From a virus: a stretch of DNA of 46,245 nucleotides. Each line of letters begins with the position of its first letter. The stretch's first letter is position 1. The stretch lies in the IMG/VR virus record IMGVR_UViG_3300004463_000095, positions 1-46,245 of that record; one strand, written 5' to 3'. Positions 8,103 to 24,698 of this stretch are shown here, piece after piece. A program made the position numbers and the translations under genes. Under the pieces are notes generated by a model that saw nothing but the letters and a program-made list of their open reading frames with translations, did no database searches and had not been told where the DNA came from.

Positions 8103-8135
8103 TCGTTCCGGGTTCGTTCCGGGTTCGTTCCGGGT
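8103..8135 (+). repeat. Left 11-bp iteron array (three units)
   Basis: Three perfect tandem copies of TCGTTCCGGGT at 8103-8113, 8114-8124 and 8125-8135. The unit differs at two positions from the mirrored unit on the right (TCGGTTCCGGG read on the minus strand). Confidence 0.85.
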
Positions 8136-8447
8136 CTTTTCTCGGTTCCGTTTTCGCCGGAAACCGTTGACTGCTTTGGACTTGCCAACTAGGTGTATCT
8201 ACCGGTATCCCAAAGCATAGGGCGGGATGGGGTGCCGGGTTGTCGGGTGGGTTTTTCTTATGTTTTTTTTTTTATTTTTTTTCTTTAATATAATATTACA
8301 CATAATATCAGACTGTCCTCAAAAGGGGACACTTGACTCCGGCAGGGCACCTATGATACACTCCCGTCGGGTATAGGTCCATGGTCAAATCGAGACAAGT
8401 CCAATCCAGTCAATCACTTACGGCAACTGCCCGAACCCGGAAGCAGG

Positions 8448-8480
8448 CCGGAACCGACCCGGAACCGACCCGGAACCGGA
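8448..8480 (-). repeat. Right 11-bp iteron array (three units, inverted)
   Basis: Read on the minus strand, TCGGTTCCGGG is repeated in tandem three times (the last copy is incomplete at its inner end). The array mirrors the left one and ends 22 bp before the parS site. Confidence 0.85.
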
Positions 8481-8501: not shown

Positions 8502-8517
8502 TGTTCCACGTGAAACA
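8502..8517 (+). promoter_or_regulatory. parS: Perfect bacterial parS site
   Basis: TGTTCCACGTGAAACA matches the chromosomal parS consensus TGTTNCACGTGAAACA at all 16 positions. ParB (Spo0J) clamps load at such sites and spread; with ParA they segregate replicons. It lies between the right iteron array and the first early gene (ATG 8530) and overlaps the likely transcription start of a possible promoter with -10 TACAAT (8495-8500). I find no ParA or ParB among the phage genes, so the host ParB would be the natural ligand. The match is seen directly; the function is inferred. Confidence 0.8.
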
Positions 8518-15976: not shown

Positions 15977-16180
15977 ATGCCTAAGTTATATAAGGCAATT
16001 AGAAGATATGAAGTTACTGAAGAAGTTCAAGTATTTGCTGAAAGCGAATATGAAGCAAGAGTTAAGATGGAAGATGATTTAGATGGAGTTACTATCATCA
16101 ATGAAATAGATGGTGACTATGAAATTAGTAGCAGAATAAGTGATATTACTTTACAAACTAAAGTAGGAGATGAGAAGTAA
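15977..16180 (+). CDS. Small hypothetical protein, 67 residues
   Basis: MPKLYKAIRRYEVTEEVQVF ... AESEYEARVKMEDDLDG has the strand, helix, strand pattern of short early proteins that contain an AESEEEAR-type helix. The stop shares a base with the start of the Sak4-like gene. Function unknown. Confidence 0.65.
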   Translation: MPKLYKAIRRYEVTEEVQVFAESEYEARVKMEDDLDGVTIINEIDGDYEISSRISDITLQTKVGDEK

Positions 16181-17055
16181 TGAGCGACATGAGCGCGGTT
16201 AATAACGATTACTTATATTGCCTATTTATGGGCGAGCCAGGAACTAGAAAATCAACTGCTGCGCTCAGTTTTCCTAAGCCCATATACTTCTTTGATTATG
16301 ATAAGAAGATGGGGGCGCTCCGCATTCCAATGAACAAATGGAAAATTTCTAATAAGGATGTTCAATTTGATTCATATACAGATTGGAATAAAGCCGAAGC
16401 AAAGTTAAAGCAGTTACAGTTGAACTGTCCTTTTAGAACTATAGTCTTAGATACCATAACGAGCATGGGCGATTCAGTTAATGACCAAACTTTAAATGTG
16501 AAGTATGGTACAACAACAGCAAGCGGCGCTGAAGCAGGCAAGAGAATAGGTGGAATCGCAGTCAATACCATAGAAGATTTTAACGCAGAAACATCAGCCT
16601 TCCAGAAATTCTTGAAACTCACAAAAGATATTCATCTATACCATAAGGTGAATATCATTCTTATCGCTCATGTCATTCAGACTGAGTATAAATCTCCAGA
16701 CAATAAATCACATATGTCACGAAGTATTGTGACTGGTGTGAAGAAACTTGCCAAGAAAATTCCATCAGTATGTGGTGAGATATACTACTTCTATATTGAT
16801 GGTGGATTTGAAGTAGGTGCTGATGGTAAGTATTGCTTATACACTCAGCATTCTGGTGATGACTTCGCTCGTTCGAGTTTACCATTACCAGCCAAGATTC
16901 AGATTGCTGACGATAGCTTGTATGACAGATACGTTTTACCGGCTATCAAAAAACAACAAGAGGAGACTAAAGCACATGAAAACATGACAAAACAACAACA
17001 GCCAACACCAGCCAACGACAACTCACAACAACGTAGTGGATTTGAAGGAGTATAG
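16180..17055 (+). CDS. Sak4-like RecA-fold ATPase (single-strand annealing recombinase candidate)
   Basis: 291 residues. A RecA-like core begins almost at the N-terminus: Walker A GEPGTRKST (18-26), Walker B FRTIVLDTIT (about 86-95), and a later strand VNIILIAHVIQTE typical of motif 3. This compact build without the RecA N- and C-domains matches Sak4-type phage recombinases (AAA_24-like NTPases), which anneal single strands with help from a phage SSB. The next gene is an SSB-like candidate, the usual partner. The C-terminal tail is Gln-rich (MTKQQQPTPANDN) and may be disordered. It overlaps the TAA of the preceding gene by one base. Confidence 0.8.
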   Translation: MSDMSAVNNDYLYCLFMGEPGTRKSTAALSFPKPIYFFDYDKKMGALRIPMNKWKISNKDVQFDSYTDWNKAEAKLKQLQLNCPFRTIVLDTITSMGDSVNDQTLNVKYGTTTASGAEAGKRIGGIAVNTIEDFNAETSAFQKFLKLTKDIHLYHKVNIILIAHVIQTEYKSPDNKSHMSRSIVTGVKKLAKKIPSVCGEIYYFYIDGGFEVGADGKYCLYTQHSGDDFARSSLPLPAKIQIADDSLYDRYVLPAIKKQQEETKAHENMTKQQQPTPANDNSQQRSGFEGV

Positions 17056-17059
17056 TACA

Positions 17060-17458
17060 ATGCCTATGATTGAATTCTCAGAACGTGACCTACTTCGTGG
17101 TAAGGTTGTAGAACCGGCTTGGTACGTTATGCGTATTGAGTCAATTGGAGAAGCACCGTCGAAAGATGGTGGTAGCGTGAACTTTCCTGTAGAGGGAACC
17201 ATCGTAAAGAACGATGATACTGGTAGCGAGGAATATGCAGGAGTTCCTGTTAGTTGGAACTTCAATTCGAAAGCTATGGGATTCTCTGTGGGATTCCTGA
17301 AAGCTATGGGCGTAGATGTGCAGCCTGGAAAGCGATATGATTTGGGCGGCGCCGCTGGTAAGGAACTGGTAGTATTCGTGGAGAACGCGGAATGGGAAGG
17401 TCGTACTATCAACCGTGTTAATCACAAGTATCGCCAGATGAAGGCTGAAACTGTTTAG
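17060..17458 (+). CDS. Putative single-stranded DNA-binding protein
   Basis: 132 residues from ATG 17060 (AGGAG nine bases upstream). The body alternates beta strands (WYVMRIESIGEAPSKDGG, VNFPVEGTIVK, GVPVSWNFNS, ELVVFVENAEWEGRTINRVN) in a way compatible with an OB fold. Placement directly after a Sak4-like ATPase gene is typical for the phage SSB partner. No acidic SSB tip is present (it ends KAETV). The call is mainly from context. Confidence 0.6.
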   Translation: MPMIEFSERDLLRGKVVEPAWYVMRIESIGEAPSKDGGSVNFPVEGTIVKNDDTGSEEYAGVPVSWNFNSKAMGFSVGFLKAMGVDVQPGKRYDLGGAAGKELVVFVENAEWEGRTINRVNHKYRQMKAETV

Positions 17459-17461
17459 TTT

Positions 17462-17536
17462 TTATGCTGGTCATGACATCCGGTAAGGAGTGGGTTAGGG
17501 TATAAGGATGGAATTTCTAACCACTCACCAGCATAA
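17462..17536 (+). ncRNA. Structured RNA element after the SSB-like gene
   Basis: TTATGCTGGT (17462-17471) pairs perfectly with ACCAGCATAA (17527-17536). Inside, AGTGGGTTAG (17489-17498) pairs with CTAACCACT (17517-17525) with one bulged G. The 3' side continues TTTTCTTATTATAT. It could be a terminator, an attenuator or a separate small RNA. A second stem GGCGG/CCGCC follows before the next gene, near 17595-17615. Confidence 0.5.
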
Positions 17537-17642
17537 TTTTCTTATTATATCTTATGTAGTGAAGTATTGCTACCGCTGAGATATGATGAAGGGTTGGCGG
17601 AACCTTAAAACCGCCATCATTCAGTAATAGAAAGGAAGTGGT

Positions 17643-17834
17643 ATGGATAAAAAAGATATCTTAGAAAAGCTAAATGAGTTTTATAGTACGCTTGAAGATA
17701 TCTTTGATAATGAAGGTATTCTGACAGCAGGTAAAAAACTTGCTAAATTTCGAGATGATTTTGGTGGCTTTACTCAAGAATTAGAAGATGATGTTAGAGA
17801 AGTAGAATCAAATAAGGAGAATTATAATGACTGA
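17643..17834 (+). CDS. Small acidic helical protein, 63 residues
   Basis: GGAAG lies upstream of ATG 17643. MDKKDILEKLNEFYSTLEDI begins a fully helical, strongly acidic protein ending in DDVREVESNKENYND. Coupled to the next, even more acidic gene by an eight-base overlap. Confidence 0.65.
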   Translation: MDKKDILEKLNEFYSTLEDIFDNEGILTAGKKLAKFRDDFGGFTQELEDDVREVESNKENYND

Positions 17835-17970
17835 ACAAGAAAAGACTGACGAGGAAATTCTGGAAGATGATAGCATTGATTCCGAGGAAGAATCGGACGA
17901 TGAAGAATCAGATGATGATTACGATCCTGATTCCGAATCTGATGAAATTTCAGATAAGACACAGAGATAG
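17827..17970 (+). CDS. Very acidic 47-residue protein, possible DNA mimic
   Basis: ATG 17827 has AGGAG upstream. Well over half the residues are Asp, Glu or Ser (for example IDSEEESDDEESDDDYDPDS). Such runs occur in DNA-mimic proteins that block restriction enzymes or histone-like proteins, but also in plain disordered tails. It has no folded-domain signature and could instead be a partner of the preceding acidic protein. Confidence 0.55.
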   Translation: MTEQEKTDEEILEDDSIDSEEESDDEESDDDYDPDSESDEISDKTQR

Positions 17971-17977
17971 AACGAGA

Positions 17978-18114
17978 TGACTCACATGATAATTCTAACC
18001 ATAAATTACTGAGTACTATCGTGATAGGCTACATGCTTCGCGCTGTAGTAGATAGTATGTCATGTGAACGTACCATGTGGCCAATAAGTGGCGAGATGAA
18101 TATCGTGTGAGTCA
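17978..18114 (+). ncRNA. Candidate structured noncoding RNA
   Basis: TGACTCACATGATA (17978-17991) pairs over 14 bp (one G-U) with TATCGTGTGAGTCA (18101-18114). Inside lie TACTATC/GATAGTA (18014-18020/18051-18057), enclosing a UUCG-type hairpin CTACA..TGTAG (18029-18048), and a small stem GCCA/TGGC (18080-18092). The multibranch element abuts an intrinsic terminator at 18115. There is no TTCGA arm or acceptor typical of tRNA. No protein frame is supported here. This is the strongest candidate for a new RNA in the window. Confidence 0.55.
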
Positions 18115-18172
18115 GGGTGCTGCGCATCTTTCAGCTCAATGAGCAACGATAAGTGCGCAGCGCCCATTTTTC
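18115..18172 (+). terminator. Strong intrinsic terminator
   Basis: GGGTGCTGCGCA (18115-18126) pairs with TGCGCAGCGCCC (18154-18165; one G-U) and is followed by ATTTTTC. It closes the transcript carrying the acidic proteins and the structured RNA, so the polymerase genes downstream need readthrough or a new promoter. Confidence 0.8.
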
Positions 18173-18184
18173 ATTTAGTTGATA

Positions 18185-18433
18185 ATGAAAACATACAAAG
18201 AGAAATACGATGACGAGAAATCATGGTTCAAGAAGGTATTGATACTAGATTCCTTCCATAGTTTAATGATAATCAAACATGGTCGGAAATGGACTATCTA
18301 TAATACTGCAAGAAGTTTAGAAGTTAGTCCTGCATTAGTTAGTGAGAATCTCAGAATCGCAGAAGCCCTAAGAAATGGAATAGAATTCAGAAATCGCAGC
18401 GAAGCTGTTAAACTTACAAGGAGAAAAAGATGA
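18185..18433 (+). CDS. Helix-turn-helix DNA-binding protein
   Basis: 82 residues from ATG 18185 (an upstream TTG is rejected). Residues about 38-65 (TIYNTARSLEVSPALVSENL) form a helix-turn-helix with the recognition helix at VSPALVSENLRIAEAL. Basic C-terminus (KLTRRKR). It begins 13 bases after the terminator, so it may control this junction. Its stop overlaps the next gene (ATGA). Confidence 0.75.
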   Translation: MKTYKEKYDDEKSWFKKVLILDSFHSLMIIKHGRKWTIYNTARSLEVSPALVSENLRIAEALRNGIEFRNRSEAVKLTRRKR

Positions 18434-18654
18434 ACGGTTATATCAGCAAGATGGTCCTGAAAGATGGTAGAGAACAGCCATATGCATTTATTACTGGTGA
18501 GGATAATAAGCAGTACTTCCTTCATCGTAATAACTTCGTTGGTAATTGGGACGAACTATCAGGACGGGTAAGTGCTAGCAGTGTGACGAAAGTTAAGTTT
18601 AATACTGTTGACAGTCCTAAAGGTCCGAGGGCTGAGAATTGTGATTTTGTATGA
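18430..18654 (+). CDS. Cold-shock-like domain protein (early block)
   Basis: 74 residues. GYISKMVLKDGREQPYAFIT, QYFLHRNNFVGNW and VKFNTVDSPKGPRAENC follow the cold-shock OB-fold order, including the FLHRNNF strand (like FFHRS) and the final KGPRAxNC strand. The RNP1 position is less conserved than in the late-block copy at 5204. Expected to bind single-stranded nucleic acid. Overlaps both neighbours by four bases. Confidence 0.8.
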   Translation: MNGYISKMVLKDGREQPYAFITGEDNKQYFLHRNNFVGNWDELSGRVSASSVTKVKFNTVDSPKGPRAENCDFV

Positions 18655-18797
18655 CTATATCAGAAGCTATTAAGATTCTAACAGAACTACAAAAGAAATA
18701 TGATAATGTTCAAGTAGCTATGGATTGTCCATTTTGTGGTAAATCAAATGAGGTCAATAAAATAGAAGTAGGACCTCCAGTAGCGAAACTAAAATGA
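18651..18797 (+). CDS. Small protein with one CxxC, 48 residues
   Basis: ATG 18651 overlaps the upstream TGA and its own TGA overlaps the polymerase ATG. Helical N-terminus (MTISEAIKILTELQKKYDNV), then MDCPFCGKSNEVNKIEV, half of a zinc ribbon. Double coupling supports it. Function unknown. Confidence 0.6.
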   Translation: MTISEAIKILTELQKKYDNVQVAMDCPFCGKSNEVNKIEVGPPVAKLK

Positions 18798-21295
18798 ACA
18801 TATACGTGCCAGCACGCGGTAATCCGAACGCGAAGATAGTATTGCTTGGTGAAGCGCCGTCATATGAGGAGGAAGCGGCGCTCGCACCATTCGTAGGAAC
18901 TGCTGGTAGAGAACTTGATAGACTATTAAAAGATGCAGGAATATCAAGAGGTGAATGTTGGATAAGTAATGTCAGCAAGTATATGATCGCGCCTCAAGCG
19001 CGCAAAGGTAAAAAGAAGTTATTTTCAGTTAGAGCAAGTGAAGCAGGTGTAAATCTAAATGAGCAACTCGAAGAGTTGCGAATAGAACTTCAACAGATTA
19101 AACCTAATGTCATAGTTGCATTAGGCGGCACGGCATTATGGGCATTAACAGGGAGTTCTAAAATTGAGAATTATCGAGGTAGTATTCTACTCGCATGGGG
19201 CTGGAAAACGATTCCAACATATCATCCCATGCATCTTCTATATCAAGAGGAAGATTCCAAGGGATATTGGAAACGACAAGTTGTTATCTTTGATCTTAAA
19301 CGAGCTAAAGCACAGTCTAATTTCCCTGAAGTCCGAAGAAGTTCTAGACTTGTTCACATCTGCAAGAATAGTGCGCATTTACAACAATTTATCGGAGATC
19401 ACCTCAGTAACAATCCAGATCCCAGAGTAGCAGAGGACATAGAAGCATTACATTGTATTCCAGTATGTAATGCTTTGGCATTTAACGCGCGCGAGGCAAT
19501 GTCAATTCCATTATGGAATCGTACTCCATTACTAACTATTAGTGAAATTCCAACAAATGATTTAGTTCAATGTTGGATTACCTTAGCCAAATTGAATAGG
19601 AATCCAAAGGTTAAGAAGATAGGTCAGAATTTTAAGTATGACGAGGATAAGTTAACGAAGCTAGGACTAGGATTAGATAGCTTATATAGTGATACATTGT
19701 TGAAAGCGTTCGCGATAGCGCCCGAACTGCCTAAAAAGTTAGCATTTCTTACATCAGTATATACAGACCAACCATACTATAAGGATGAAGGCTCTGAATT
19801 CGATTATACAAAGCATCCTATCAGTCGTCTATTGAACTATAATGGAATCGATGCGATGGTAACTTGGGAGATTGATGATAAACAGGAAGCAGAACTCCAT
19901 GAGATAGGTCAGTGGAAGTTCTACTACAATTTTATCATGAAGCTCCACAAGTTGTACATGGAAATTGAGAACACTGGATTCAGGATTGATGAAGAAAAGC
20001 GTATTGAACTTCTCAAGAAATATGTTAAGTGGCATGAAAGATTAAGATATGAATTGTATAAGTTAGTAGGCGAAGATATAAATGCGAATTCCTGGCAGCA
20101 AGTATCTAAACTGTTGTATGACAAATTAGCATTACCAACTAGGACAGGAACAAATGAAGAAGCGCTCACACAACTCCTTAATACAGCAGCGAAACGTGAT
20201 ATCCAAAGAGATTCCATCACAAATATATTGGATCAGCGTAGAGTTAAGAAAACAATCGGAACGTACTTACTCGCACCTCAAGACTTCGATGGACGAATGC
20301 GCACAACTTATTACCTATGTCTTGAAACTGGGAGAACTGCTACTGGATTACAGGAACCTCCTGTTAGACCTAGAATTGAAGTCCCGGAACTCGAATTTAT
20401 CGGTAAAGAAAGTAAAAAGAAAAAAGAATTAGGTATGGCATTTCAGACCATTACCAAGCATGGTGATATTGGTAATGATGTTCGCGAGATGTTTGTGCCC
20501 GATGAAGGTTGTATATTTCTACAAGCTGATAGCGCACAAGCGGAAGCGCGTGTAGTGTTTATGCTTGCTAATGATATGCAAGCATTAGAAGATATTGATA
20601 AGAGAGATTATCATGCGCTCACAGCATCATGGTTCGTCGGCGGTACAGAAAATGATTGGTCGAAAAAAGTTCTTGGTTATGAACATCCAAATCGTTTTCT
20701 TGGAAAAACTTTGCGACATGCTGGACATTTGGGCGCGAAAGCTAGACGCGCTGCAACTGAAGTTAATACGCAAGCGCGCAAGTATCATATCCCAATAACA
20801 ATCAGCGAAGGCGCTGCGAAAAAAGCATTAGAAACTTTTCATGCGAAGCAGCCTAGTATTCAGAAAATATTTCATGCGTCAATCATTAAACAATTGGAGG
20901 CCAATCGAACTTTGATTGCGCCAGCACCATATGGAATTGATAGTCCGGTTGGTGGTCGTAGAATGTTTTTTGAACGTTGGTCAGATGAATTATTCCGTCA
21001 GGCGTTTTCCTATATTCCCCAAAGGACTGTGTCGGATAATACTAAAGCCGCAGCACTCAGAATTAAGGCGCGCGCAGCATGGATCAAGATTATCGTTGAA
21101 GCGCATGACGCATTGCTTGTAATGGTTCCATTCGTTAGAAGATTTGAAGCTAAAGCAATTCTGAAAGAAGAAATGGAACGACCTATTGATTTTAGTACAT
21201 GCAGCATTAAGCGAGGTATTCTGACGATTCCGTGTGATGTTGAGATTGGTTCTGACTATTGTAACCTCAGTAAATTTAAGGATGTGGCGGCATGA
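18794..21295 (+). CDS. Family A DNA polymerase with N-terminal uracil-DNA glycosylase-like domain
   Basis: 833 residues in three parts. (1) Residues 1-175: family 4 UDG-like domain with GEAPSYEEE (19-27), PFVGTAG (32-38) and the late TYHPMHLL (142-149). (2) Residues about 205-365: 3'-5' exonuclease with DIE (215-217), QNFKYDED (278-285) and YNGID (349-353). (3) Residues about 375-833: polymerase with motif A LQADSAQAEAR (576-586), motif B around FLGKTLRHAGHLGAKARRA (635-653) and motif C EAHDALLV (769-776). Motif C lacks the usual Glu of HDE, and motif B has HLG where NFG/YG is common. The UDG part could recognise uracil in template or modified DNA. It is presumably the replicative polymerase. 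Confidence 0.93.
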   Translation: MNIYVPARGNPNAKIVLLGEAPSYEEEAALAPFVGTAGRELDRLLKDAGISRGECWISNVSKYMIAPQARKGKKKLFSVRASEAGVNLNEQLEELRIELQQIKPNVIVALGGTALWALTGSSKIENYRGSILLAWGWKTIPTYHPMHLLYQEEDSKGYWKRQVVIFDLKRAKAQSNFPEVRRSSRLVHICKNSAHLQQFIGDHLSNNPDPRVAEDIEALHCIPVCNALAFNAREAMSIPLWNRTPLLTISEIPTNDLVQCWITLAKLNRNPKVKKIGQNFKYDEDKLTKLGLGLDSLYSDTLLKAFAIAPELPKKLAFLTSVYTDQPYYKDEGSEFDYTKHPISRLLNYNGIDAMVTWEIDDKQEAELHEIGQWKFYYNFIMKLHKLYMEIENTGFRIDEEKRIELLKKYVKWHERLRYELYKLVGEDINANSWQQVSKLLYDKLALPTRTGTNEEALTQLLNTAAKRDIQRDSITNILDQRRVKKTIGTYLLAPQDFDGRMRTTYYLCLETGRTATGLQEPPVRPRIEVPELEFIGKESKKKKELGMAFQTITKHGDIGNDVREMFVPDEGCIFLQADSAQAEARVVFMLANDMQALEDIDKRDYHALTASWFVGGTENDWSKKVLGYEHPNRFLGKTLRHAGHLGAKARRAATEVNTQARKYHIPITISEGAAKKALETFHAKQPSIQKIFHASIIKQLEANRTLIAPAPYGIDSPVGGRRMFFERWSDELFRQAFSYIPQRTVSDNTKAAALRIKARAAWIKIIVEAHDALLVMVPFVRRFEAKAILKEEMERPIDFSTCSIKRGILTIPCDVEIGSDYCNLSKFKDVAA

Positions 21296-24106: not shown

Positions 24107-24390
24107 CTGAAAAATTAAAACATCTTGAAATTAGTACTATTCTTTCAAATCGAACGAAAGAAGGAATGATTAATTTTAAGTTGGATACTGAATTCACACA
24201 ATGGGATATTTCTAAAGCAAAAGAAATTCATCGTATGTTAGGCGAGGCAATTGAAGCAGCCGTTAGTGATACTCTGATTTATAAATTTCTAACTACAAAG
24301 GTAGGATTGGATGAGGATAAGGCCACGCGTGCGCTGCTCGATTTTAGAGAATTGAGACAAGGCACGCGTGGCATTAGTTTTCCATTTTAG
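24103..24390 (+). CDS. Hypothetical protein, last gene of the early block
   Basis: 95 residues. Strand-rich beginning (LKHLEISTILSNRTKEGMIN), then a helix (ISKAKEIHRMLGEAIEAAVS) and a second helical part, ending GISFPF. Its TAG overlaps the stop of the converging late block. Function unknown. Confidence 0.7.
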   Translation: MTEKLKHLEISTILSNRTKEGMINFKLDTEFTQWDISKAKEIHRMLGEAIEAAVSDTLIYKFLTTKVGLDEDKATRALLDFRELRQGTRGISFPF

Positions 24391-24698
24391 AGTTTTCCAA
24401 TATTCGCAGTTTCTTCACCCTCTGGTACCGGCTCATTCAGGCCGGTATCATATTCTCCTTCAGATTCATTAGCTTCTCGTCTAGTCTCGCCTTGTCGAAT
24501 AGGTGATTGTGGAATGCTAGTAGCATCATTCCATTTCTGTTTCTCGTAAGGACTAGTAGTTCTCAGATGCAAATCCTTCTCGCGCGCGGGCATACTATCT
24601 GCGGAAGTAGTAGTGATCGGCGCATCAGGTTTCGCAGTCTTAGGATTTGGATTAGGTTCCTGAGCTTTCTTGATTGCTTCATTCGTGGAATCAGTCAT
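24387..24698 (-). CDS. Disordered hypothetical protein, last gene of the late block
   Basis: 103 residues, rich in Pro, Thr, Glu, Asn and Gln (KKAQEPNPNPKTAKPDAPIT), with no hydrophobic core. Overlaps the 800-residue gene by four bases. Probably a flexible virion or assembly protein; function unknown. Confidence 0.65.
   Translation of the reverse strand: MTDSTNEAIKKAQEPNPNPKTAKPDAPITTTSADSMPAREKDLHLRTTSPYEKQKWNDATSIPQSPIRQGETRREANESEGEYDTGLNEPVPEGEETANIGKL
24426..24447. terminator. Symmetric hairpin beyond the early block
   Basis: TACCGGC (24426-24432) and GCCGGTA (24441-24447) form a perfect GC-rich stem with an eight-base loop, 36 bases past the last early stop and inside the last late gene. 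It may slow or end transcription from either side, but no U-run follows. Confidence 0.3.

Follow-up and report, generated by a model that had tools for sequence, protein, structure and literature searches.

What does this phage encode in the 214-nt gap (17971–18184) that separates the stop codon of an acidic ORF (17970) from the next ATG (18185)? The window, as we call the whole 46,245-base IMG/VR virus record analysed here, carries Sak4-like, helicase, exonuclease, DNA polymerase and primase genes on the + strand between ~8.7 and 24 kb, and structural genes on the − strand. A DNA similarity search against phage records found no similar record. The best full-length matches of the window polymerase to known phages are below 30% identity, and a polymerase scan of 84,980 genomes yielded only 22–27%. 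An earlier note on this DNA had proposed that the stretch lacks a supported protein and holds a structured noncoding RNA ending in an intrinsic terminator. Consistently, no ORF of 60 or more amino acids lies within the gap. The genes and RNA segments around it are listed in Table 1. Relatives of the 82-aa protein encoded just downstream lie near the polymerase gene in many of the related phages, and the cold-shock-domain (CSD)-like protein that follows it scores 17.2 bits, short of the curated Pfam CSD cut-off of 27.

Table 1. Genes and predicted RNA segments around the gap, in window coordinates
Feature	Position	Strand	Basis
Sak4-like ssDNA annealing protein / AAA_24 ATPase gene	16180..17055	+	PHROG 124 E 3e-23; Pfam AAA_24 6e-11
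p17036, conserved protein, upstream anchor	17036..17458	+	46–70% identity, 16 relatives; no Pfam match
Small ORF, 63 aa	17643..17834	+	ORF list
Acidic (D/E-rich) ORF, 47 aa	17827..17970	+	sequence; stop 7 nt 5′ of RNA
Whole RNA element (D1 + D2 + U-tract)	17978..18172	+	folding and composite search
P1 5′ arm	17978..17991	+	predicted fold
D1 interior, internal-loop extension and two arms	17992..18100	+	predicted fold, moderate confidence
P1 3′ arm	18101..18114	+	predicted fold
D2 terminator-type hairpin, stem 18115–18127/18153–18165	18115..18165	+	predicted fold
AUUUUUC tail	18166..18172	+	sequence
82-aa protein, helix-turn-helix-like by eye	18185..18433	+	no Pfam match
Cold-shock-domain-like protein	18430..18654	+	Pfam CSD E 0.0048, below curated cut-off
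Family A-type DNA polymerase gene	18794..21295	+	PHROG 17 E 3e-65

Several other features were seen elsewhere in the window. The sequence TGTTCCACGTGAAACA at 8502–8517 exactly matches TGTTNCACGTGAAACA, which we take to be the parS consensus of ParB/Spo0J; it is the single match in the window, where none is expected by chance, and the other loci examined contain none. The 11-bp iterons TCGTTCCGGGT, in about four copies with inverted copies on the opposite side, lie at 8103–8146 and 8435–8478 and flank an AT-rich, poly-T stretch between divergent gene blocks, a region that is possibly a replication origin or control region. Two strong hairpins (24322–24450, z −5) lie at the convergent end of the replication block. 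No tRNA genes were found in the window.

Predicted fold of the element

The gap contains an element of 195 bases between the two phage genes, with a minimum free energy of −82.6 kcal/mol, as compared to a mean of −51.2 kcal/mol for dinucleotide-shuffled sequences (z −8.05; none of 200 shuffles was as low). Its first domain, D1, is closed by the long-range stem P1, whose 14 bp, including one G–U pair, agree with the stem described earlier. The ensemble pair probabilities of P1 are 0.99–1.0 for most pairs and 0.79–0.88 at both ends. Inside D1, a short extension (17994–17996/18094–18096 and 17999–18002/18088–18091) and two arms (18007–18057 and 18059–18081) are predicted, with pair probabilities of only 0.55–0.85, and the three smaller stems of the earlier note are thus an approximate description. 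Its UUCG-type loop is not borne out: no cUUCGg tetraloop is present, these letters do not form an unpaired loop in the minimum-free-energy fold, and an alternative local hairpin would have the loop UUCGC at −5.1 kcal/mol.

The second domain, D2, begins directly 3′ of P1 without a spacer, as the claim of an adjoining GC-rich terminator had it. The 13-bp GC-rich stem of D2 (12 pairs at p≥0.98, the thirteenth weaker) is followed by AUUUUUC, so that D2 combines a stable GC-rich stem with a U-run within about 2 nt, the features by which we define an intrinsic terminator. A composite search for P1 adjoining a GC-rich hairpin that is followed by a T-rich tail gave a score of 31.2 for the real stretch 17456–18794, and 27.2 for the best of 400 dinucleotide shuffles. 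A simple terminator scan missed D2 because its loop region exceeds the 8-nt limit of the scan, and a folding scan in 160-nt windows left the element outside the top windows because these windows cut through it. We also searched the element for a conserved alternative antiterminator helix, and found none.

A covarying RNA family in related phages

Is this structure conserved in other phages? Exact-pattern and single-protein scans of viral contigs gave no matches. Relatives were fetched with an alignment of the polymerase and three phage homologues, which yielded 80 viral contigs (some two dozen with 51–59% polymerase identity), and a second, clade-specific polymerase alignment provided 80 more loci on contigs partly shared with the first set. 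The clade is represented here by metagenomic contigs only, the complete-looking ones being ~45–50 kb. At the corresponding site between the p17036 and polymerase genes, the close relatives have a rod closed by P1 and then a GC-rich hairpin. Among the relatives (numbered with the prefix L), tRNA genes were seen in L087 (1938–2011 and 2685–2769), L058 (7019–7092) and L112 (8545–8626). The DNA polymerase match is split in L058 (3206–6628, by ~1 kb) and L028 (2274–4400, by ~0.2 kb), possibly by an intron or insertion; no Rfam intron match was found for these two split genes.

The seed alignment comprised 17 well-aligning RNAs, aligned with MAFFT and not fitted to any model. RNAalifold predicted 37 pairs on these seeds, 35 of which have at least one compensatory change. 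The covariance model R1, built from the same 17 seeds, matches 61 of the 80 close loci, all on the + strand (E about 1e-34 to 0.06), and has no significant match in 60 distant polymerase loci. In the 55 distinct R1 matches, 96.7% of the cells are paired, versus 70.4% in shuffled and 39–44% in slid alignments, and the covariation score is 0.514, versus 0.174 (sd 0.008) shuffled and at most 0.112 slid. The second set, which was fetched via p17036 and whose contigs partly overlap the first, gave 97.0% paired cells and a covariation of 0.470 versus 0.178. Alignments fitted to a covariance model favour the structure of that model, and the unfitted MAFFT seed shows the same result. Overall, 76 distinct RNAs were compared, and it is close to certain that the RNA family is real and conserved. 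Covariation among homologues, the decisive check named in the earlier note, strongly supports a structured noncoding RNA.

The paired cells include 158 G–U and only 12 A–C combinations, and selection therefore acts on the + strand RNA. This asymmetry disfavours a role of the structure as DNA, such as an origin, primosome or packaging hairpin, as do the conserved unpaired letters, which read on the + strand only; the adjoining replication genes would suit such a role, and we regard it as extremely improbable.

The family elements span ~95–200 nt, and their conserved unpaired letters lie in two places. D1 contains a GAAnU/UAAG loop, and the D2 tip carries AAnRC.../...UNAC in the main subtype and another arrangement, GACGU.../...ACGUAnAnUACU, in the second. 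In individual members (for example, L014 and L119), the D2 tip reads AAUAC.../...UUAC in one subtype, and another subtype has ACG in the 5′ strand of the tip and AUACU in its 3′ strand; the two arrangements are possibly the same loop motif with swapped strands.

The Rfam search proposed in the earlier note returned no match for the element: in Rfam 15, the window has no match at the curated thresholds, L001, L008, L009, L014 and L016 have none at E≤1, and L086, L091, L112 and L153 have only a distant tRNA. This bipartite structured RNA family is previously unregistered and absent from Rfam 15.

The window copy and its neighbouring genes

How does the copy in the window relate to this family? 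R1 does not find the window element (7.2 bits, E 0.19 in 2 kb). R2, a broader model built from the second set with the window left out, places it in register at 17980–18175 with a marginal 15.7 bits (E 0.0068 for 2 kb), and did not report it in a 232-kb search. The window element has the family architecture (P1-closed D1, adjoining GC-rich D2 and T-rich tail) and the family position, after an acidic ORF and before the csd and polymerase genes. As the models score this copy poorly, its membership rests on position and architecture, and it is probably a divergent homologue of the RNA family. The window branches off early in the polymerase tree, on a long branch, and this placement is uncertain because long branches meet. 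The lineages flanking it (L087 and L092; L086, L090, L091 and L112) have a two-part RNA without a sequence match, and L024, L025 and L098 have only a plain hairpin in place of the element, the one of L024 being a canonical terminator. The most economical account is that the two-part element is old, and that D1 has changed quickly and has in some cases been lost. A 14-nt D1 stretch common to the window and L112 (CATGCTTCGCGCTG) does not recur in the clade and is probably due to chance.

The gene neighbourhood is stable within the family. Of 77 members, one could not be scored, and the other 76 have an acidic ORF ahead of the RNA, with 47–82% D/E in its last 40 residues. Its stop codon typically lies 1–11 nt before P1 and otherwise inside D1 (median stop-to-P1 gap, 5 nt), and the next start codon follows ~27 nt downstream. 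The CSD gene directly follows the RNA in at least 61 of ~75 members, and in 7, the window among them, it comes second. The CSD proteins of relatives pass the Pfam cut-off (38.1, 35.6 and 30.8 bits; E 1.5e-9 in L014, 8e-9 in L016 and 2.7e-7 in L098), and when loci were fetched by the CSD protein, 61 of the 63 searched carried the RNA immediately before its gene. These counts come from one clade with common ancestry and thus describe stable synteny, not independent associations; inherited synteny within one clade is no proof of a functional link between the RNA and the CSD protein. In E. coli, cspA has a structured leader upstream of its cold-shock-domain gene. The present RNA likewise lies 5′ of such a gene, but it follows an acidic ORF in an intergenic position, finishes with a hairpin of the terminator type and has no match to an Rfam leader family.

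An irregular rod between genes of one operon strand, in most members 1–11 nt past a stop codon, could also serve mRNA processing or stability, with D1 as an RNase III-type irregular duplex and D2 as a 3′-protecting hairpin that parts the upstream and downstream messages. T7 has RNase III processing sites at intergenic positions, and its sites resemble D1 as irregular duplexes between phage genes. In contrast, the loop letters of the present family are conserved and its partner hairpin is fixed, and cleavage here is hypothetical. Moreover, simple duplex cleavage needs no conserved internal-loop letters, and P1 extends only 8–14 bp to the first irregularity in many members. We consider this explanation unlikely.

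A proposed role in termination and read-through before the polymerase genes

How might the RNA act? A T-rich tail (at least four T in 10) follows D2 in 46 of 55 members, while L160, L157 and L119 have a poor U-tract. D2 is accordingly terminator-like in most members, not all, and the intrinsic terminator end of the earlier note holds for the window and most relatives, several others lacking a good U-tract. No enrichment of sigma70-like promoters was found upstream of the RNA among the members. Therefore, the RNA most likely lies within the operon transcript, and a terminator-type element in such a place implies that some transcription reads through it. We put at about even the chance that the RNA acts in cis on termination and read-through ahead of the csd-polymerase genes; the poor U-tracts of some members, the negative search for an antiterminator helix and the weak model scores of the window copy count against this.

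The missing promoter enrichment also bears on the discrete small RNA of the earlier note, which gains no positive support as a unit with its own promoter. A trans-acting phage small RNA of ~120–200 nt, stabilised by P1 and ended by D2, could nevertheless act on host or phage RNAs or in an RNP. The discrete two-domain fold, the terminator-type 3′ end and the conserved unpaired letters in D1 (GAAnU/UAAG) and the D2 tip fit this role, and the conservation exceeds the needs of a plain terminator. Against it, the D1 interior is highly variable in size and letters, and the acidic ORF stops inside D1 in several members, so that the RNA overlaps coding sequence. Such a small RNA is possible though rather improbable, and an origin by processing from, or transcription within, the early transcript is similarly tentative.

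The weak U-tracts in part of the family would suit a put-like antiterminator, whose pair of adjoining irregular stem-loops binds RNA polymerase during elongation and renders it resistant to downstream pauses and terminators. HK022 putRNA, ~70 nt long and located near early promoters, suppresses termination (PMC9378689), and shares with the present family two adjoining long irregular stem-loops with a non-canonical interior in a phage transcript (PMC9378689). However, the family elements are ~95–200 nt long and located mid-operon, and most members, the window included, carry a U-tract-type terminator, which put does not. In addition, a plain terminator hairpin can stand in for D2 (L024). A put-like function is therefore very unlikely.

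Returning to a cis-acting terminator with read-through, the closest comparison is with intrinsic-terminator attenuators, including the Csp-affected metY-rpsO and SgrS (PMC9765468). An intergenic hairpin with a U-rich tail is common to both, here upstream of a cold-shock-type protein gene. What sets the present family apart is the large covarying D1, stacked in front of a hairpin that is itself enlarged and has a conserved tip; the search for an alternative antiterminator helix was negative, and regulation here is only inferred. E. coli CspD attenuates termination at intrinsic terminators (PMC9765468), and B. subtilis CspB/CspD shift read-through both ways (PMC8307031). The CSD protein is a natural candidate effector, because the Csps of bacteria associate with nascent RNA and alter read-through at intrinsic terminators. 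The gene order and the Csp effects on terminators suggest, and do not demonstrate, feedback of the CSD protein on the element; the promotion of termination by B. subtilis Csps at several sites (PMC8307031) counts against it. The conserved loops could equally bind a host or another phage protein, or mark a small RNA.

From these considerations, we propose the following model. The RNA lies between two blocks of genes, one for recombination and ssDNA binding (Sak4, p17036 and the acidic ORF) and one for replication (the CSD protein, DNA polymerase and primase), and would be transcribed with them as part of the + strand operon. D1 is a rod closed by P1, with D2 stacked straight behind it as a terminator-type hairpin, which would stop many transcripts past the acidic ORF. 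Some polymerases would pass D2 into csd-polymerase, possibly in a regulated manner. D1, with its conserved internal loop, may tune this read-through by binding a protein or delaying RNA polymerase, or alternatively by competing with the ribosome that completes the acidic ORF a few nt upstream. The candidate effector would be the CSD protein encoded just downstream. A fuller version, in which an RNP switch of the CSD protein on the D1/D2 internal loops, together with translation of the acidic ORF coupled to D1 folding, gives self-controlled read-through into the replication genes, is a doubtful extension.

Given its position and the CSD gene downstream, the most plausible use of the RNA is that of a candidate riboregulator acting on read-through towards the polymerase genes. 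It is uncommon for phages to have an RNA family this large that covaries strongly. In dozens of different phages, the present one sits at the same gene boundary, with two unusual partners beside it: a small acidic protein and a protein of the cold-shock-domain type. The alignments and models provide a means to recognise this phage clade in metagenomes. If the cis-acting model is true, the element would be a compact case of parting the expression of recombination genes from that of replication genes, in which a phage-encoded RNA chaperone may be involved.
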